From Prevotella sp. (GTDB lineage Bacteria; Bacteroidota; Bacteroidia; Bacteroidales; Bacteroidaceae), in NCBI GenBank assembly GCA_017538105.1, contig JAFYJN010000085.1, positions 205,707 through 269,706 on the forward strand: a stretch of 64,000 bases of DNA. The letters run 5' to 3'. Shown piece after piece: positions 3 through 61,837 of this stretch. The position numbers were made by a program, and so were the translations under genes. Under the pieces are notes generated by a model, which was given only the letters and a program-made list of their open reading frames with translations, was not told where the DNA came from and searched no databases. Position 1 is the first letter of the stretch, and every line of letters begins with the position of its first letter.

Positions 3-1769
3 GAAACAATGGGTGCCGCCACCGTGATATGCACCGACAAAACAGGCACGCTCACGCAGAACAAAATGAGTGTGATGGACACCACGCTCATCGGCGACAG
101 TCGCTCATCGGTCATCGCCAACCTCTGCGTGAATAGCACCGCCGAACTGGGCACGGACGAAAAAGGCAATCCCACTGTATTGGGTAACCCCACCGAAGGA
201 GCCTTGCTGCGTTGGGCCGAGAAAGAGGGTGAAGACTACCGTCAGTATCGTCACAACCTGCATATTGTCAGCCAAATGCCATTCTCCACGGTCAGGAAAT
301 ACATGGAAACCGTTGTCGACTATCCCGACGGGCGACGTGTCCGCTTCCTGAAGGGAGCCCCTGAATTGCTCGCATTAAAATGCGATATTCTCTCCCCATC
401 AAACGAGTCATGGCAGAAAGCCAAGACAGCTTTGGACGAATACCAACGAAAAGCCATGCGCACCCTCGGTTTCGCCAGCCAGGACCTGACAGACGGCAAT
501 GAGCATCCGCTGGTGTTCGAGGGTGTATTCGGCATTGCCGACCCTGTACGCGACGATGTGCGTGCCGCCATCGACCAATGTATGAACAAAGCCCATGTAC
601 GCGTGATTATCGTCACGGGCGACACTCCTGGCACCGCCAATGAGATAGGTAGGCAGATTGGACTGCTCGATCCGGAGGAAGCGCCGCAGGACATGACGGG
701 TCCAATGTTTGCCTCGCTAAGTGACGAAGATGCCCTTCGCTTAATCACATCGCGCGATTTCAAAATTATTAGCCGTGCACGTCCCGACGACAAGGCGCGT
801 CTGGTAACACTCTTGCAACAAGCAGGAGAGGTGGTGGCTGTGACGGGCGACGGTACCAACGATGCCCCCGCGCTGAGCAAGGCCCAAGTGGGGCTGTCTA
901 TGGGTGACGGCACATCACGTGCCAAGGAAGCCAGCGACATCACCATCATCGACAATTCCTTCTCGAGCATCAACAAAGCCATCTTGTGGGGTCGGTCACT
1001 CTACCAGAACATCCGCCGTTTCATCCTTTTCCAGATGACCATCAATATCTGCGCCTGTCTCATCGTGCTACTGGGTGCCTTTCTCGGCCTCGACTCTCCA
1101 CTCAACGTCACGCAGATGTTATGGGTGAACCTCATCATGGACACTTTTGCCGCCATGGCCATGTCATCACTGCCGCCTAGCCGTAGTGTACTCTATGAAC
1201 ATCCCCGCTCACCCAACAGCCATATCATCGACCGACACATGGGTTTGCAGATGCTTATCGTGGGGTTGCTGTTCTTCCTGCTGCTCTTTGGCATGTGGCA
1301 GTATCTATGGCATAACGACCTCACCTACGACGAGGGTATCGCCAGTCACCTTAACATGACCGACTTGAAAGCGTATGTCGCCGGTCTCATGGATTTCAGC
1401 AAGAAAAAGCCACATATACAAGAATATGAATTAGGAGTGTTTTTCACTTTCTTCGTAATGTTGCAATTTTGGAATCTCTTCAATGTCCGTTATTTTCATA
1501 CCTACCGTTCGCTTGTCACAGACATCATCAGTTTCTTCCGCGGCAAGCGCAAGATAGGCGACGTGTTCAGCAAGAGTTTTCTTTTCATAGCCGTCTGCAT
1601 ACTTGCCGGACAGTTCCTCATCGTGAACTATGCCAGTTCTTTCTTCCATGTCTCACCGCTGAGCGGCAACGACTGGCTCATGCTAATCCTCGTCACCTGT
1701 CCTGTTTTGGTGGTAGGTGAAATCATCCGTATTGTGAGGATGGCAAGGCACGGGATGTTATTCAACTAG
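3..1769 (+). CDS. Calcium-translocating P-type ATPase, C-terminal part (cut by window edge)
   Basis: P-type cation pump, most likely a Ca2+ exporter of the PMCA/SERCA-like group, acting in the inner membrane. The reading frame is already open at base 3, before the first Met at base 9, so the N-terminal third lies outside the window. The phosphorylation motif DKTGT stands at the very start, followed by the nucleotide-binding domain (KGAPE near residue 115), TGD, and the hinge motif TGDGTNDAPAL near residue 280. The last 270 residues hold about six hydrophobic helices, including NLIMDTFAAMA, as in Ca2+ pumps. The family assignment is firm; the transported ion is inferred from the helix motifs. 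Confidence 0.9.
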   Translation, partial: ETMGAATVICTDKTGTLTQNKMSVMDTTLIGDSRSSVIANLCVNSTAELGTDEKGNPTVLGNPTEGALLRWAEKEGEDYRQYRHNLHIVSQMPFSTVRKYMETVVDYPDGRRVRFLKGAPELLALKCDILSPSNESWQKAKTALDEYQRKAMRTLGFASQDLTDGNEHPLVFEGVFGIADPVRDDVRAAIDQCMNKAHVRVIIVTGDTPGTANEIGRQIGLLDPEEAPQDMTGPMFASLSDEDALRLITSRDFKIISRARPDDKARLVTLLQQAGEVVAVTGDGTNDAPALSKAQVGLSMGDGTSRAKEASDITIIDNSFSSINKAILWGRSLYQNIRRFILFQMTINICACLIVLLGAFLGLDSPLNVTQMLWVNLIMDTFAAMAMSSLPPSRSVLYEHPRSPNSHIIDRHMGLQMLIVGLLFFLLLFGMWQYLWHNDLTYDEGIASHLNMTDLKAYVAGLMDFSKKKPHIQEYELGVFFTFFVMLQFWNLFNVRYFHTYRSLVTDIISFFRGKRKIGDVFSKSFLFIAVCILAGQFLIVNYASSFFHVSPLSGNDWLMLILVTCPVLVVGEIIRIVRMARHGMLFN

Positions 1770-55526: not shown

Positions 55527-56464
55527 TATAGGTGGAACCGTGCTACGAGGGGGAGGTGGTCGCTGAAACCGCGCTGATGGCGTTTGCCCACATAGGTGCG
55601 CTTGGGTTGTTTGCCCCCATATTTCTTATCGTCAGATAAGAGGAAGGGAGCGTCGAAGATAAAACAGTCCTCCAAACGCGCCGCCATGGAAGGACTGGCA
55701 AAAATATGGTCAAGACTACCCCACTTGCCCTGAAATTTATAGGTGCCCTTGGCTCCATGTGAGCCTTGGGCATCTTTAGATATATGCACGAGGTCATGAC
55801 CACGCAAGAACACTGGCGCAGGGTCGTCAGCATAGTCGTTGAAATCGCCCGCGATGATGATGTCGGGATTGTCGTGACATTGTCGCAGAGAGTCGACGGC
55901 CATGGCGATACGTTGTGCCACCTTGTCGCGATATGCCCTGTGGGCGGCTCCTCCCACCCTACTGGGCGCATGCACCACGAACACATGTAGCGTGTCGCCC
56001 CCGACGGTCAGTCCCTCGGCATAGAGAATGTCGCGTGTGGCGTGACTGTTCCCCACCGGCTCCACACGCATCGTGTCATAGCAGATAAGTTGGAAGGAGA
56101 ACGGTGAATAGAGCAGTGCCACATCGATGCCACGCTCGTCGTCCGACTCGGTCATGATATAATCATAGCGTGCCGAACGAAGCAACGAACGGCGCGTGAG
56201 ATCGCGGAGCACCGAGTCGTTCTCCACCTCACACAATGCCACCATGTCGGGCAAGGCCCACTCCTCCTCGCCACCGCAAGCCACGATTTCCTGCGCTATG
56301 GCATTCACCTTTCGCCAATAGCGGTTGGCGTCCCATCGGCGGTCCGAAGTGGGCAGGTATTCATAGTCGTTCTTCCCCTCGTCGTGTTGGTAGTCGAAGA
56401 GGTTTTCGCAGTTCAGTTCCACGAACGTGAAAAGAGCCGCCAAGAGCGCATTTAGGAAAGTCAT
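55526..56464 (-). CDS. Endonuclease/exonuclease/phosphatase-family protein
   Basis: A 312-residue exported EEP-fold hydrolase. An N-terminal hydrophobic stretch (residues 1-17) acts as a signal; ELNCENLFDY (17-26) is the family's first metal-binding motif, VALCEVEND (84-92) supplies Glu, VVHAPSRVG is near 170, AGDFNDYADDP near 205, and the final GFSDHLPLVARF gives the catalytic Asp-His. The substrate may be nucleic acid or phospholipid. It overlaps the EamA transporter gene by 4 bases, so it is at the 3-prime end of the aromatic operon, although no functional link is evident. Confidence 0.86.
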   Translation of the reverse strand: MTFLNALLAALFTFVELNCENLFDYQHDEGKNDYEYLPTSDRRWDANRYWRKVNAIAQEIVACGGEEEWALPDMVALCEVENDSVLRDLTRRSLLRSARYDYIMTESDDERGIDVALLYSPFSFQLICYDTMRVEPVGNSHATRDILYAEGLTVGGDTLHVFVVHAPSRVGGAAHRAYRDKVAQRIAMAVDSLRQCHDNPDIIIAGDFNDYADDPAPVFLRGHDLVHISKDAQGSHGAKGTYKFQGKWGSLDHIFASPSMAARLEDCFIFDAPFLLSDDKKYGGKQPKRTYVGKRHQRGFSDHLPLVARFHL

Positions 56465-57393
56465 GACGTAGGAGCGATTTTCGTTTTGTCAGCCAGGAAC
56501 ATTCCCGTGAGGATGAGGACGGCGCCTAACAAGAAAAAGACGGTGATAGTCTCGTTGAGGAACCACCATGCGAAGAGGATGGTCGTGATGGGGTTGAAAT
56601 AGACCCAGTTGGTGGCCACCACCGGTCCCAGCCTACGCATCACCCAATTCCATGTGAGGAAACATACCATCGAGGCCACGATGCCGAGGTAAAGGAGATT
56701 GCCCCAGACGACAGAACTGTCAAAGGCCTGGATATTAAGTGGTTGTCTGCTGAACAAGAGATAAGGAACGATGGTGACGAGACCATAGAAGAACACCTTG
56801 CGAGTGATGAGGAAGATGTCGTAGTGTCGCAACGCCTGTTTCATCAGCAGTGAATAGAATGCCCATGCCAGACACGCCACGAAAGCCAGGGCATCGCCCA
56901 ACGGCGACAGGTGGAGCACGAAATGTCCATTGAGCACCACCGTGGCCATGCCCAACAATGCGATGAACGAGCCCAGCATTTGCATCTTCGTCACCTTCTC
57001 GTCACGATAGACTGCCGCGATGAAGAACATGGCAAAGAGCGGACATGAGCATACGATGAGTGAAGTGTTCGTGGCCGTGGTATGGTTGAGCGCCTCGTTT
57101 TCGGCCAGGAAATAGAGCGACCCCCCTGTTACGCCCAAGGCCACCATCAACAGTTCGTCGCGCCACCGCTTCATGCTCGACCATGTCGGTCGGTTTGTCG
57201 CAGTATGTTTTCGACGCACCAATGGCATCAGTCCCAGCATGAGCACATAGGCCATGGTAAAGCGGAGCGTAAAAATCCAAGCCGGCGTGAGTCCATGAAG
57301 GAGCAGCACCTTCGTACTCACAAAGGTAGTGCCCCAGATGGCTACGGTGAAGAAAGCCACGAGGTGAGCCCATGCCCGGTTGGTCTCTCGCAT
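56461..57393 (-). CDS. EamA/DMT-family transporter, possible aromatic amino acid exporter
   Basis: A 310-residue permease with ten predicted membrane helices in two EamA halves (residues about 10-140 and 155-305). It begins 5 bases after the stop of tyrA in the same operon as the Phe/Tyr enzymes, as expected for an exporter of aromatic amino acids or their precursors such as YddG. Alternatives are nucleoside or other metabolite export; the substrate is inferred only from context. Confidence 0.85.
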   Translation of the reverse strand: MRETNRAWAHLVAFFTVAIWGTTFVSTKVLLLHGLTPAWIFTLRFTMAYVLMLGLMPLVRRKHTATNRPTWSSMKRWRDELLMVALGVTGGSLYFLAENEALNHTTATNTSLIVCSCPLFAMFFIAAVYRDEKVTKMQMLGSFIALLGMATVVLNGHFVLHLSPLGDALAFVACLAWAFYSLLMKQALRHYDIFLITRKVFFYGLVTIVPYLLFSRQPLNIQAFDSSVVWGNLLYLGIVASMVCFLTWNWVMRRLGPVVATNWVYFNPITTILFAWWFLNETITVFFLLGAVLILTGMFLADKTKIAPTS

Positions 57394-57397
57394 AGTG

Positions 57398-58192
57398 TCA
57401 GCGTTTGATTTCTATGTCACGCCTGACGTTGTCGCGTATCTTTTTGAGGTAGGCGGCCATACCGTCAGAATCTTTATTGTCGATGATTTCCAACAACTGC
57501 TTCAACTCAGTGCGTATTTGCGCCACCTGACCGCTGGTATAGGGGTTGAAAAGCACCTCCTGCAACAGGAAATCGTCCTCGTTGAGCACTCCCTTGGCGA
57601 TACGCATGTGTCGTTTGAACGTGGTTCCCGGCGCATCCTGATGTTTCATCACGGCTGCAAAGACAAAGGTCGAGACAAAAGGGATACTCAGCGAATAAGC
57701 CACTGTGCGGTCATGCTCCTCGAAGTCATATTCATAGATATTCAGTCCGAGACGTGAATAGAGGTCCTTGAAGAAGATACGTCCCATGTAGTCACCCTCG
57801 GTGATGATGATGGCGTTCTCCTCCGACAGTTGTTGCAGGTTGGCGAAGGTGGGACCGAACATCGGGTGCGACGACACATATCTGCGCCCAGTGCTCTCAT
57901 AATAGTCTTTCAGGCCGGTCTTCACCGAAGCGATGTCGCTGATGATACAGTCGTGTGGCAAATAAGGCAACACCTCGTTGAATGCCACGATGGTGTATTT
58001 CACCGTCACCGCATTGATGACCAGTTCGGGTTGAAACGCCTCAATCTCTTCCAGTTTGGTGAAACGCTGTGTGTTGTAGGTGAAACGCATACGCTTGGGG
58101 TCTTTCTCAAAAACCGCCGTTTCATGGTCGAAACTAAGCAGGTCGAGGAAGAAACTGCCCATCTTTCCTGCGCCTAATACTAGGATTTTCAT
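57398..58192 (-). CDS. tyrA: Prephenate dehydrogenase
   Basis: A 264-residue NAD(P)-dependent enzyme that converts prephenate to 4-hydroxyphenylpyruvate for tyrosine. The start at 58192 places the Rossmann motif VLGAGKMGSFF directly at the N-terminus; the frame extends 12 codons upstream without family sequence. IISDIASVKTGLKDYY near 92-107 and SSHPMFGPTF near 117 are family motifs; EEHDRTVAYSLSIPF is the substrate-binding part. No ACT domain is attached. Fourth gene of the aromatic operon after DAHP synthase-chorismate mutase. Confidence 0.93.
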   Translation of the reverse strand: MKILVLGAGKMGSFFLDLLSFDHETAVFEKDPKRMRFTYNTQRFTKLEEIEAFQPELVINAVTVKYTIVAFNEVLPYLPHDCIISDIASVKTGLKDYYESTGRRYVSSHPMFGPTFANLQQLSEENAIIITEGDYMGRIFFKDLYSRLGLNIYEYDFEEHDRTVAYSLSIPFVSTFVFAAVMKHQDAPGTTFKRHMRIAKGVLNEDDFLLQEVLFNPYTSGQVAQIRTELKQLLEIIDNKDSDGMAAYLKKIRDNVRRDIEIKR

Positions 58193-58220
58193 TGTATTTA
58201 ATATAAAGCCCCCCTCTAAC

Positions 58221-58279
58221 TCCCCCAAGGGGAAGAATAATTACTTTGTGAGGTATTCACGCCCTCCCCTCGGGGAGGG
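58221..58279. repeat. Two CCCTCCCC/GGGGAGGG palindromes in the tyrA leader
   Basis: TCCCC (58221-58225)/GGGGA (58229-58233), then CCCTCCCC (58262-58269)/GGGGAGGG (58272-58279), in the 104-base gap between the DAHP synthase gene and tyrA. Confidence 0.85.
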
Positions 58280-58296: not shown

Positions 58297-59361
58297 TTAC
58301 TGATTAATAATTTCCATTTGCTGACGCACACTCTCCTCGTGCACACTCTCGAAGATTTTCTTCACGAAGTCGGTGCCCATGCCGCAGAGCGCGCCCTGTG
58401 CTCCGCGTTTGTCGAGTATCTCACTGTAACGGATGTGTTGAAGCACCGTCATGTTGTGCTCTTTTTTGTACTGTCCTATCTCGCGGCATACCCTCATGCG
58501 CTGAGCCAGCAGATTCATCAGTTGGTTGTCCAACTCGTCAATCTGCTTGCGCAATTCGTGTATGCCCTCGGTGGTCACCGTCTCGTCACGGATGACGAGC
58601 AGTGAGAGGATATAGTCGAGCACGTCGGGCGTCACCTGTTGCGAAGCATCGCTCCACGCCTTGTCGGGGTCGCAGTGGCTCTCCACTATCAGACCGTCGG
58701 CACCCAGGTCGAGGGCCTGCTGACAGAGCGGTGCCACCAGTTCGCGTTTGCCACCGATATGACTGGGGTCGCAGATGATGGGCATATCGGGGATGCGTCG
58801 GCGCAACTCGATGGGTATCTGCCACATCGGCAGGTTGCGGTATATCTTCTTGTCGTAGCTGGAGAAACCACGGTGTATGGCTCCCAGATGAGTGACACCA
58901 GCCTGGTTGAGTCGTTCGAGCGCTCCTATCCACAGTTCGAGGTCGGGATTGACGGGGTTTTTCACGAACACGGGGGTTTTGCAACCGCGCAGGGCATCAG
59001 CAAGAGCCTGCATGGCAAAGGGGTTGGCTGTTGTGCGGGCACCAATCCAGAGGATGTCGATGCCGTATTTCATGGCCAGTTCCACATGTTCGGGAGTGGC
59101 CACCTCGGTGGCTACCAACATACCCGTTTCTTTCTGTACCCGTTGCAGCCATGGGAGAGCTTTCTCGCCATGACCTTCGAAGCCACCGGGTTTGGTGCGC
59201 GGTTTCCACACGCCCGCCCTGAAGTTATGGCATCCTTTCGAGGCCAGTTGTTTGGCCGTGGTCATCACTTGCTCTTCCGATTCCGCCGAGCATGGTCCCG
59301 CGATAACGAAAGGTCGTTCATTGTCGCTGGGCAGTTTGATTGATTGAAGTTCCAGTTCCAT
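58297..59361 (-). CDS. Fused DAHP synthase - chorismate mutase
   Basis: A 354-residue bifunctional enzyme. Residues 1-260 are a 3-deoxy-7-phosphoheptulonate synthase (FVIAGPCSAESEEQV, residues 18-32; FRAGVWKPRTKPGGFEG; GIDILWIGARTTANPF; ICDPSHIGGKRELV near 195). Residues 265-354 are an AroQ-type chorismate mutase (LRKQIDELDNQLMNLLAQRM). The chorismate mutase end may also regulate the synthase, as in B. subtilis AroA(G) though with reversed domain order. It opens and channels the Phe/Tyr route and is the third gene of the attenuated operon. Confidence 0.95.
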   Translation of the reverse strand: MELELQSIKLPSDNERPFVIAGPCSAESEEQVMTTAKQLASKGCHNFRAGVWKPRTKPGGFEGHGEKALPWLQRVQKETGMLVATEVATPEHVELAMKYGIDILWIGARTTANPFAMQALADALRGCKTPVFVKNPVNPDLELWIGALERLNQAGVTHLGAIHRGFSSYDKKIYRNLPMWQIPIELRRRIPDMPIICDPSHIGGKRELVAPLCQQALDLGADGLIVESHCDPDKAWSDASQQVTPDVLDYILSLLVIRDETVTTEGIHELRKQIDELDNQLMNLLAQRMRVCREIGQYKKEHNMTVLQHIRYSEILDKRGAQGALCGMGTDFVKKIFESVHEESVRQQMEIINQ

Positions 59362-59545: not shown

Positions 59546-60733
59546 TCAAAATTCAACATTCATAATTCTCTCTTTCGCTTCTGCTATTTTTTCGTCCTTG
59601 GCGCAGAGCGAGATGCGGATGTAGCGTTCGCCACGTGAGCCGAAGATGAAGCCGGGAGTGATGAACACCCGTGCCTCATGGAGCACCCGCTCCGTCAACT
59701 CCTCGGCATTGGCATAACGGTCGGGAATACGCCCCCAAAGGAACATACCCACCTGCGCGGGGTCGAAAGAACAGCCCAAGGTGGTCATAATCTGTTCCGC
59801 CAAGGCGCGGCGCCGACGATAGGTGTCGACGTTGGCCATGCGGTGCCACTCGTCGTCGTTGTGGTATGCTTCCGCCGCCGCCAGCTGAATGCCTCGGAAC
59901 GTGCCCGAGTCGATGTTGCTCTTCACCTTGAGAATCCACGAGATGAACGTGCTGTTGGTGGCGCACAGTCCCACGCGCCATCCCGGCATGTTATGGCTTT
60001 TTGACATCGAGTTGAACTCGATGCAACAGTCTTTGGCACCATCCACCTGTAGCAGCGACAGCGGCTGTTCATTGAGAATGAACGAATAAGGGTTGTCGTT
60101 TACCACCACGATGCTGTGCTCCTTGGCAAAGCGAACCAGCCGCTCGTAGGTTTCCCTCCTCGCAGCGCCTCCCGTAGGCATATTGGGATAGTTGGTCCAC
60201 ATCAGTTTCACGCCCAAAAGGTCCATGCTCTCCAGTTGCTCGAAATCAGGTTGCCACCCATCATCCTCACGCAGGTCATAGTTCACCACCTGTGTGCCGA
60301 GCAGTTTGCTCAATGACGTGTAGGTGGGATAGCCAGGGTTGGGCACGAGCACCTTGTCGCCGGGATTGGCGAAGGCCAACGTCACATGCAATATTCCCTC
60401 TTTCGAGCCGATGAGCGGCAGGATTTCCGTTTTCGGATCAAGGCTCACGTCATACCACCGTTTGTAGAAATAGGCCATCGCCTCGCGCAGTTCGGGCGTG
60501 CCCATCGTGGGTTGGTATCCGTGGGCACCAGGTTGCTGCGCTACCTCACACAGTCGATGGATGGTCTGTGGCGAGGGAGGCATGTCGGGACTGCCGATAG
60601 CCAGACTGATGATGTCAAACCCTTGTCGGTTGAGTTCGGCCACCTCTTTGAGTTTACGCGAGAAATAGTATTCACTCACCTGACTCAACCTGTCGGCAGG
60701 TCTGATGTCAATATGTTTGTTGTCCAATTTCAT
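59546..60733 (-). CDS. Aminotransferase class I/II of the aromatic operon
   Basis: A 395-residue PLP-dependent aminotransferase, likely converting phenylpyruvate and 4-hydroxyphenylpyruvate to Phe and Tyr, as its neighbours suggest; LL-diaminopimelate or aspartate aminotransferase activity is an alternative. Family motifs are IGSPDMPPSPQTIH near 47, NPGYPTYTSL near 132, WTNYPNMPTGGAA near 175 and the PLP-Lys segment NSMSKSHNMPGWRVG (Lys about 243). It overlaps the pheA end by 26 bases. Confidence 0.88.
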   Translation of the reverse strand: MKLDNKHIDIRPADRLSQVSEYYFSRKLKEVAELNRQGFDIISLAIGSPDMPPSPQTIHRLCEVAQQPGAHGYQPTMGTPELREAMAYFYKRWYDVSLDPKTEILPLIGSKEGILHVTLAFANPGDKVLVPNPGYPTYTSLSKLLGTQVVNYDLREDDGWQPDFEQLESMDLLGVKLMWTNYPNMPTGGAARRETYERLVRFAKEHSIVVVNDNPYSFILNEQPLSLLQVDGAKDCCIEFNSMSKSHNMPGWRVGLCATNSTFISWILKVKSNIDSGTFRGIQLAAAEAYHNDDEWHRMANVDTYRRRRALAEQIMTTLGCSFDPAQVGMFLWGRIPDRYANAEELTERVLHEARVFITPGFIFGSRGERYIRISLCAKDEKIAEAKERIMNVEF

Positions 60734-61550
60734 ATTCTCCTATGATGTTCAATTCCTTGGTCAATGGTGTGATGGCGTCGATGCTCTGTCGGTAACGCGT
60801 GAGGTTGTCGTAGGTCACGTCAACATAGAACATATATTCCCATTCGTGTCCAATGATGGGCAACGACTGTATTTTTGTAAGGTTGATGTTGTAGAAAGAG
60901 AGGATAGTGAGCACCTTAGAAAGCGACCCCTCCTCATGGGGCAACGAGAAGACAAGACTGGCCTTGTTGGCTTTCTCCAAAGGTCTGAGGAAGTCGGCCT
61001 TGCGCGTGTCAGACACTACAAGGAACCGGGTGAAGTTATGTTTGTTGTCCTCGATGGAATCCTCGAGCACCTTCATGCCGTATAGCTTTGCCGCCTCGGC
61101 ATGGCAGATTGCCGCCCATCCCCGGCAGTCCAAGCGTTGAATCATCTCTGCCGCGCCCGCCGTATCTTCATGTTCCACTGCCTTGAGTTGCGGATGGTCG
61201 GCCAGATACCCACGGCACTGCATGAAAGCCACGGGATGGGAATGAACCTCCTGCAACGTCTCCCATGAATCATCGGGCAGGCAACAGATGGAATGGCGTA
61301 TATGCAGCTTATGCTCTCCCACGATGGTCGTTCCCGAAGCGCGCAACAACTCATAGTTATGCAACAGGCTCCCCGCAATGGTATTCTCTATGGCCACCAT
61401 GCCGATGACAGTGGGGTCGCGCTTGATGTTTTCGAACACCTGTTCGAAAGTCGCACAGCAGATGATTTGAATCTGCTGACCTTTGAAATATTCATGGGCG
61501 GCGATGTCGTGGAACGACCCTATGGCACCTTGTATAGCTATTCGTTTCAT
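60708..61550 (-). CDS. pheA: Prephenate dehydratase
   Basis: A 280-residue enzyme that turns prephenate into phenylpyruvate. The N-terminal 180 residues are the dehydratase domain (IQGAIGSFHDIAAHEYF; VIGMVAIENTIAGSLLHNY near 58-76; catalytic Thr region HNFTRFLVVSDT near 170). The C-terminal 90 residues are an ACT domain with the Phe-binding ESRP-like SLPIIGHEWEYMFYVDV segment. It is not fused to chorismate mutase; that activity is in the downstream DAHP synthase fusion. It is the first structural gene after a Phe/Tyr-codon attenuator. Confidence 0.96.
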   Translation of the reverse strand: MKRIAIQGAIGSFHDIAAHEYFKGQQIQIICCATFEQVFENIKRDPTVIGMVAIENTIAGSLLHNYELLRASGTTIVGEHKLHIRHSICCLPDDSWETLQEVHSHPVAFMQCRGYLADHPQLKAVEHEDTAGAAEMIQRLDCRGWAAICHAEAAKLYGMKVLEDSIEDNKHNFTRFLVVSDTRKADFLRPLEKANKASLVFSLPHEEGSLSKVLTILSFYNINLTKIQSLPIIGHEWEYMFYVDVTYDNLTRYRQSIDAITPLTKELNIIGEYEIGQQTY

Positions 61551-61639: not shown

Positions 61640-61670
61640 AAAAAGTCCCGTTCACGTTGTGAAGCGGGAC
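61640..61670 (-). terminator. Attenuator terminator in the pheA leader
   Basis: On the minus strand GTCCCGCTTCAC (61659-61670) pairs with GTGAACGGGAC (61645-61655) with one bulged C, followed by a U run (61640-61644). This is an intrinsic terminator inside the operon leader, not at its end. It is mutually exclusive with pairing to the upstream antiterminator strand at 61714-61725. Confidence 0.9.
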
Positions 61671-61701
61671 CTTTATATATTGTTTGTTTTATGTCATTTC
61701 C

Positions 61702-61779
61702 TTATACGCGGCATCCCACTTCACAATTGTTTGCAAAGTAAAAATAGAAGCCGTAAAAGTTAGCATTATATGTTCTCAT
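61702..61779 (-). CDS. Phe/Tyr-rich leader peptide of the aromatic operon
   Basis: A 25-codon reading frame with start ATG at 61777-61779 and stop TAA at 61702-61704. Its centre reads NFYGFYFYF: four Phe (8, 11, 13, 15) and four Tyr (4, 9, 12, 14) within twelve codons. The leader is shorter than usual annotation cut-offs. It lies about 20 bases after the predicted transcription start and precedes the antiterminator/terminator structures and pheA (start 61550). The mechanism is that of classical enterobacterial pheA and pheST attenuators; its use in Bacteroidota is the notable point. Confidence 0.88.
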   Translation of the reverse strand: MRTYNANFYGFYFYFANNCEVGCRV

Positions 61780-61805
61780 TCTTTCGTCTTGTTACGATTT
61801 GGGTG

Positions 61806-61837
61806 CAAAAATATAACATTTTTTCCGTTTACGCAAA
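61806..61837 (-). promoter_or_regulatory. Bacteroidetes-type promoter of the Phe/Tyr operon leader
   Basis: Minus-strand TTTG (61834-61837), 20 bases, TATTTTTG (61806-61813). Placed about 27 bases before the leader-peptide ATG. The rest of the gap, 61838-61993, shows no gene or structure. Confidence 0.82.

Follow-up and report, generated by a model that had tools for sequence, protein, structure and literature searches.

In Escherichia coli, pheA is preceded by pheL, a leader peptide with cognate codons, and is regulated by charged tRNA-Phe (PMC11802643, in its accessible part). As far as that part goes, the E. coli pheL-pheA arrangement, like that of pheST, resembles the locus described here, where a leader with cognate codons also lies before pheA. 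PheL answers to Phe according to the same part, whereas the present leader has alternating Phe and Tyr codons and stands before an operon that further carries tyrA and a DAHP synthase gene. A second relative is the aroR-aroF operon of Corynebacterium glutamicum, in which stalling of the ribosome on a Phe-Tyr-Phe leader raises transcription (Neshat 2014, as given in the accessible part of PMC11802643). AroR is the nearest tested leader of mixed composition, and it responds to Phe but not to Tyr (same source and part). Like the present locus, it places a leader containing both Phe and Tyr codons ahead of an operon with DAHP synthase. It differs in its Phe-Tyr-Phe run, its response to Phe only and its phylum, and the accessible part of the account mentions no tandem modules.

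In Flavobacterium psychrophilum, a structured 5' element without an Rfam match lies before pheA and is conserved in the Flavobacteriaceae; an element of this kind also precedes hisG, and strong clues for leader-peptide attenuation at amino-acid operons are reported (PMC9723704, in part; for a general treatment, see the accessible part of PMC4833913). The available part of the F. psychrophilum account gives neither a leader sequence nor a Phe/Tyr codon content, does not test alternative pairings, and states conservation for other genera of the Flavobacteriaceae. The first-pass annotation of the DNA studied here had framed leader-peptide attenuation as best known in Proteobacteria; by the same partial account, the mechanism is already in print for the present phylum. 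The Flavobacterium pheA element is very probably a member of the set described below. A comparative study by Vitreschak from 2004 reportedly predicted leader-peptide attenuation and named the Bacteroidetes/Chlorobi, and work by Lopatovskaya from 2010 reportedly also concerns predicted attenuators in this group. A search of the open-licence PMC literature returned nothing further for this phylum, either on Phe/Tyr leaders or on leader-peptide attenuators in tandem; older work may cover some of this ground. The kind of mechanism is already known; judging from the sequences, what appears to be new is a reading of Phe and Tyr that follows the operon content, a class-wide spread and the occurrence of tandems.

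The window, i.e. the whole analysed stretch of 64,000 nucleotides from a Prevotella genome (contig JAFYJN010000085.1), carries the operon in question on its minus strand, to which all coordinates below refer. The pheA gene (60708–61550) encodes a prephenate dehydratase (Pfam PDT, 4e-54) with an ACT domain (Pfam E 6.5e-5, weaker than the cut-off of that model). It is followed by a class I/II aminotransferase (59546–60733; Aminotran_1_2, 6.8e-59), a DAHP synthase fused to chorismate mutase (58297–59361; DAHP_synth_1, 2.6e-44; CM_2, 1e-23) and the prephenate dehydrogenase gene tyrA (57398–58228 as a mechanical ORF; PDH_N, 5.2e-11), the true start of which is likely the ATG at 58192. The gene next after tyrA encodes an EamA-family transporter (56461–57393; EamA, 8.5e-42), possibly an aromatic amino-acid exporter belonging to the pheA operon. 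The earlier suggestion that the leader reads both Phe and Tyr, as the operon makes both, agrees with this set of prephenate dehydratase, aminotransferase, DAHP synthase/chorismate mutase and prephenate dehydrogenase.

The promoter, read from the sequence and of the Bacteroidota type, consists of a −33 box TTTG (61834–61837) and, after a spacer of 20 nt, a −7 box TATTTTTG of the TAnnTTTG type (61806–61813), the position of which would put the transcription start near 61800. The leader ORF of 25 codons (61702–61779, stop codon 61702–61704) encodes MRTYNANFYGFYFYFANNCEVGCRV, with the core NFYGFYFYF; codons 4–15 include eight aromatic ones, four each for Phe and Tyr. Strand 2, the antiterminator strand TTGTGAAGTGGGA (61714–61726), lies within the leader ORF and is supported by folding and coevolution. 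It pairs with strand 3 (61657–61670), of which the antiterminator uses 61657–61669 and the terminator 61659–61670, and the resulting 2:3 helix has 13 pairs including one G-U (61714–61726 with 61657–61669). The terminator, GTCCCG(C)TTCAC-AAC-GTGAACGGGAC (61645–61670), comprises 11 pairs and one bulged C, with strand 4 as its 3' arm (61645–61655), and continues into TTTTTAT; its T tract (61640–61644) is where the attenuated transcript is predicted to end. As strand 3 is common to the antiterminator and the terminator, the 2:3 and 3:4 pairings are mutually exclusive. The terminator folds at −18.8 kcal/mol (z −6.35), which none of 200 shuffles equals, and the antiterminator segment at −22.2 kcal/mol (z −3.96), equalled by one shuffle of 200. 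A simple terminator scan of the window gave no hits, which we ascribe to the bulge; the terminator was seen by folding instead. Strand 1, the protector TACTTTGCAA (61731–61740), falls within the final Tyr and Phe codons. Together with the 5' portion of strand 2 (61717–61726) it forms a 1:2 hairpin of 10 pairs, three of them G-U.

Most of these parts had been recognised in the first-pass annotation. Its minus-strand promoter of TTTG, 20 nt and a second box, its 25-codon leader with four each of Phe and Tyr across codons 4–15 and its terminator of 11 pairs with one bulge before pheA are all found at the positions given above. Its antiterminator strand is likewise present and exclusive with the terminator, but forms 13 pairs and not 12. 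The classical layout that it proposed is right in that the parts are in place, but the 1:2 protector hairpin had been overlooked. With this hairpin added, the device takes the classical four-strand form. The hairpin details of the E. coli pheL attenuator are alike.

The locus is very probably a ribosome-mediated transcription attenuator that reads the supply of Phe and Tyr and controls the operon of pheA, the aminotransferase, DAHP synthase/chorismate mutase and tyrA. In silico, this reading is supported by its parts, their conservation, the coevolution of the pairings, the placement of the codons and the change of codons with operon content. Upon transcription from about 61800, the leader would be translated at once. 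With ample charged tRNA-Phe and tRNA-Tyr, the ribosome would reach the stop codon and cover or pass strand 2, so that the 3:4 terminator could form and RNA polymerase would halt near 61640. If either charged tRNA were short, the ribosome would stall on FYFYF, thereby covering strand 1 and freeing strand 2, which would capture strand 3 ahead of the synthesis of strand 4, and RNA polymerase would run on into pheA. Translation of the leader, stalling, coupling of transcription and translation, termination near 61640 and a response to each of the two amino acids are thus the steps that we infer.

Searches that include weak matches recovered pheA from 120 of 150 genus genomes, from 99 of 121 in the family sample, from 128 of 148 in the phylum sample and from 109 of 247 in the order sample. 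Upstream stretches were first read at 130 loci: 70 of the 120 genus matches (40 of these mostly the most distant ones), 40 of the 99 family matches and 20 of the 128 phylum-sample matches, 19 of the 20 being of the window's own class; 30 more phylum-sample loci were added later. Three loci (L063, L108 and L109), at 28–32% identity, were not taken as orthologues, and the leader count accordingly covers 127 loci. The 2:3 set of 121 loci omits, besides these three, L030 (no terminator) and L040, L047, L049, L058 and L106 (no leader); the 120-locus sets used for promoters, spacing and ribosome models additionally omit L133. The 127-, 121- and 120-locus sets all include the window's own locus.

A stretch of 12 codons with at least seven Phe/Tyr occurs 5' of pheA in 120 of the 127 loci, as against five of 2540 dinucleotide shuffles and three of 127 reverse complements. 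With a cut of at least six, the numbers are 122 of 127, 64 of 2540 and 14 of 127. Conservation of Phe/Tyr codons in relatives, which had been proposed as a test of the attenuator, is therefore borne out. As far as is known, Bacteroidota hardly use Shine-Dalgarno initiation. A Shine-Dalgarno-like tetramer is present within 20 nt 5' of the start in only five of 121 leaders, and this stretch is 54% A. Trp codons also occur in 13 of the 121 leaders, eight of them from class-level relatives (e.g. L115, L118, L124, L126, L127, L128, L131 and L132).

One alternative is that the attenuator senses Phe only, the Tyr codons being passengers of RNA pairing or of codon drift. Corynebacterium AroR behaves in this way (PMC11802643, accessible part). 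The codons TTY and TAY are one base apart, and strand 1 shares sequence with the final Tyr and Phe codons, both of which would suit passenger codons. The content of the operons argues the other way. At least two Tyr are present in the core of all 79 leaders with an aminotransferase, DAHP synthase or tyrA gene downstream (61 order loci and 18 class/family loci, among those with the downstream stretch read). Eight pheA genes are without aromatic neighbours in the 0.7–2.6 kb examined, two of them without a leader (G515 and G546) and six with one. In all six of these solo leaders (G430, G440, G630, G506, G635 and G450) the core has no Tyr or a single one, which is the case for none of the 79 operon leaders. 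The leaders at the solo loci (L197, L198, L199, L253, L255 and L417) are nearly pure Phe; that of G450, MMITINNSFFFFFFRSDPEKGL, has six Phe in 12 codons, below the cut of seven, and was identified on re-reading. Fisher's test gives p 3e-8 for five of five and p 2e-9 for six of six, for leaders that come from four families, two of which contribute two genomes of one genus, so that the cases amount to about four independent ones; the terminator-followed leader was chosen by hand at the solo loci and a rule selected the densest leader at the operon loci. In G430, G440, G630, G546, G515 and G506, the aminotransferase, tyrA or DAHP synthase gene lies on another contig behind a mixed Phe/Tyr leader.

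Both codons are thus kept where both products are made, and Tyr is lost where pheA stands alone. Nine operons that carry tyrA or aminotransferase/DAHP synthase genes but no pheA have leaders richer in Tyr, the median share being 0.57 there and 0.40 at the 79 operon loci (p 7e-5), a contrast weakened by the share of 0.50 already present in the first set of 121 genus, family and class-level loci. The solo pheA genes amount to a natural experiment, and judged from codon content it supports sensing of Phe together with Tyr; a response to Phe alone appears unlikely. The solo cases can also serve as natural codon-swap experiments on what the leader reads.

A riboswitch, a T-box or a protein-bound leader could sense the amino acid or the tRNA directly and dispense with translation. 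Phe and Tyr operons elsewhere do use T-boxes or proteins, and alternative hairpins taken by themselves would fit such a sensor. Rfam gave no match at the gathering threshold in the 64-kb window and none at E 0.1 in nine loci, and a new Rfam family could therefore be added. The most constant feature of the element is a run of aromatic codons in an open frame, for which an untranslated sensor would have no need, and these codons become almost Phe-only at solo pheA genes. Direct sensing is accordingly very improbable, and the attenuator that reads Phe and Tyr by translation remains the preferred interpretation.

The alternative pairings of such an attenuator were examined across loci. Set against shuffled leaders, the 2:3 energies of 121 loci lie at a median z of −4.57, and no more than two of 200 shuffles are as good in 102 of these, no more than ten of 200 in 115. 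L115 and L133 are weak in this test, the latter because its leader was matched to the wrong terminator of a tandem locus. When arms were swapped among 30 loci (L115–L134 and ten hand-picked family and genus loci, with the L133 leader trimmed to 90 nt), the own arm paired at a mean of −16.2 kcal/mol and foreign arms at −10.9 kcal/mol, a difference reached by none of 100,000 permutations, nor by any of 100,000 in L115–L134 alone. Exceptions are L115, L126, L128, L133 and L134, which pair better with 8–18 of the 29 foreign arms.

An alignment of 57 of the 121 loci (A1), hand-picked for diversity, shows compensatory changes in all three helices. In 3:4, 91.6% of cells are paired and 51 cells carry double changes, as against 18.0 in shuffles; in 2:3, the values are 86.8% and 19 against 6.9, and in 1:2, they are 84.0% and 26 against 9.2. 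None of 500 shuffles reaches the observed number of double-change cells in any of the three, and control structures slid along the 57 rows are 35–55% paired. The number of pair types does not exceed the control in 2:3 (reached or exceeded by 473 of 500 shuffles) or in 1:2 (157 of 500), nor does the number of double-change pairs in 1:2 (3 against 3.2; 437 of 500 shuffles at least as high). The 1:2 helix is weaker at its outer pairs. The check on covariation of 2:3 and 3:4 that had been proposed for this DNA thus turned out in its favour: compensatory changes exceed those of the shuffles in the 57 rows, and the arms match locus by locus.

By one uniform rule, the complete module of leader, terminator and antiterminator lies 5' of 189 of 205 pheA genes, 204 of which belong to the same class, the exception being G282. 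By sample, it is found at 64 of 69 genus, 37 of 38 family, 20 of 20 phylum-sample and 68 of 78 order loci. Mononucleotide shuffles of the same stretches yield it in none of 205 cases and reversed stretches in one of 205. The promoter is kept as well: of 120 loci, 111 have a TAnnTTTG box 5' of the leader, compared with 135 of 2400 mononucleotide shuffles, and 91 have the complete TTG-19..22-TAnnTTTG promoter no more than 120 nt 5' of the leader, compared with five of 2400. Intergenic regions often carry intrinsic hairpins with T tracts, and this general frequency would suit a terminator that is constitutive or serves the upstream region, with the short ORF as an incidental neighbour. An incidental assembly of this kind is scarcely credible in view of the joint presence of ORF, terminator and antiterminator at 189 of 205 pheA genes against one of 410 controls, the promoter box 5' of the leader in 111 of 120 loci, and the coevolution of strand 2 with strand 3.

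A wider spread was also considered. Outside the class, the module was found at three of 31 pheA loci (L427, L428 and L134; genomes G401, G334 and G282); among the 30 added pheA loci outside the class it was found at two (G401 and G334), as against none of 30 in the reversed control. A phylum-wide spread was dropped, since the module is absent from 28 of the 31 loci, and the module is a feature of the window's class. Among the outside-class genomes, these three have the PheA closest to that of the window, and transfer is therefore possible.

Two further searches located the element independently of the rule. A covariance model built from A1 had hits in 72 of 247 order genomes; among 30 loci listed, 26 lie before pheA, three before an aminotransferase-DAHP synthase operon and one on a cut contig. 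A scan of named genomes for the core pattern gave at least 120 stretches; among the 80 listed, 75 have an aromatic leader and pheA within 450 nt, one lies near an end and four are others. The matches include Phocaeicola vulgatus ATCC 8482 (leader MKALYNTYFFFFYYFYFSNKVKREFVCVR, L315), Segatella and Hallella. As the element is kept at most sampled pheA genes across the class, the coupling of RNA polymerase and ribosome is probably tight enough there for attenuation to work, and the element offers a small, testable reporter of coupling for gut commensals.

Some loci lack the element or parts of it. No leader was found at L040, L047, L049, L058 and L106, and L030 has a leader without a terminator by the rule. 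In the order sample, L218, L230 (from a genome of 1.2 Mb), L234 and L272 have no leader, and L242 lies at a contig end. At L040, inspection by eye shows that the promoter box is retained and the leader before pheA is gone, a natural loss of the attenuator. At L049, what reads by eye as trpA is directly followed by pheA, which has no leader of its own, and control of pheA may there have passed to the trp operon. In the window's genome, hisG, ilvD and thrA (L135, L136 and L141) are without a leader attenuator by eye. A search of other amino-acid operons had been suggested earlier, and in this genome it gave no such leader at the three genes; the pheA device is therefore not a general habit of the genome.

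The strand-2 element was detected in 85 of the 121 loci, and the leader reads it in frame 0, 1 and 2 in 46, 14 and 25 of them, so that the RNA and not the peptide is conserved across species. Nascent-chain arrest by the leader peptide itself, in place of a codon-wise reading of supply, would be in keeping with the FYFYF core and with tails such as CEAGSCV that look conserved in the genus, but can practically be discarded, since the stretch after the core is read in three frames (46, 14 and 25 of 85 loci) and several leaders end inside strand 2, which leaves no conserved peptide tail.

Stalling of the ribosome on the Phe/Tyr codons, as the attenuator would require, was modelled with a footprint that blocks 18 nt behind and 11 nt ahead of the A-site codon's first base. 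For the window, the transcript from 61803 to 61639 was used and codons 4–26 were tried. On this full transcript, only four A-site positions make the antiterminator the fold of lowest energy: Tyr12, Phe13, Tyr14 and Phe15, the control codons at 61735–61746. The terminator forms without a ribosome, with the ribosome at codons 4–11 and from codon 16 to the stop. When full transcripts of 120 loci were folded at equilibrium, only 28 lost the terminator upon a stall, which implies that most members need co-transcriptional folding. Of the 167 codons at which a stall has this effect, 113 are Phe/Tyr codons, compared with 1080 of 2793 among all codons.

In transcripts cut before strand 4, a stall at codons up to the last core Phe/Tyr leads to 2:3 in 96–99% of loci, and this share falls to 92%, 62% and 33% when the stall lies one, two and three codons past that codon. 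Without a ribosome, 2:3 forms anyway in 99 of 120 loci, and with the ribosome at the stop codon strand 3 is free in only 73 of 120. In all 120 loci, strand 2 starts 2–14 nt (median 9) past the last core aromatic codon. At 15 of the 120 loci, more than 15 nt separate the end of strand 2 from the stop codon downstream of it, and release there must rest on a re-formed 1:2 hairpin or on the ribosome separating strand 2 from strand 3.

Tandem modules, each with its own leader and terminator, precede pheA at 13 of the 205 loci by the uniform rule. They were first seen as side-by-side hits of the covariance model. Tandems were noted at L176, L180, L190–L192, L194, L195, L200, L208, L212, L263, L133, L252 and L262, and the arms of their modules mostly differ. 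A tandem in G478, missed by the uniform rule, was added by reading; another in G644 is doubtful, as its first hairpin has no proper T tract. In 11 tandem loci, pairings within a module have a mean of −14.4 kcal/mol and cross-module pairings of −9.3 kcal/mol, and at three of these loci (L191, L194 and L263) a pairing across modules is stronger than one within a module. To our knowledge, and from the search of open-licence PMC, tandem leader-peptide attenuators are not in print.

Taken together, we lean towards seeing the pheA attenuator as an old, class-wide RNA element in which one leader would sense two amino acids, selection would retune the codons when genes move, towards Phe only at a lone pheA and towards Tyr in tyrA/DAHP synthase operons that lack pheA, and tandems in several families would steepen the response to starvation by multiplying the chances of read-through. 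If the tandems do act in this way, modules in series would be a simple means to sharpen an attenuator. The second leaders of five families have YFM in common. Two Tyr-rich leaders were also seen before aminotransferase-DAHP synthase operons without pheA (L420 and L423; G490 and G506).
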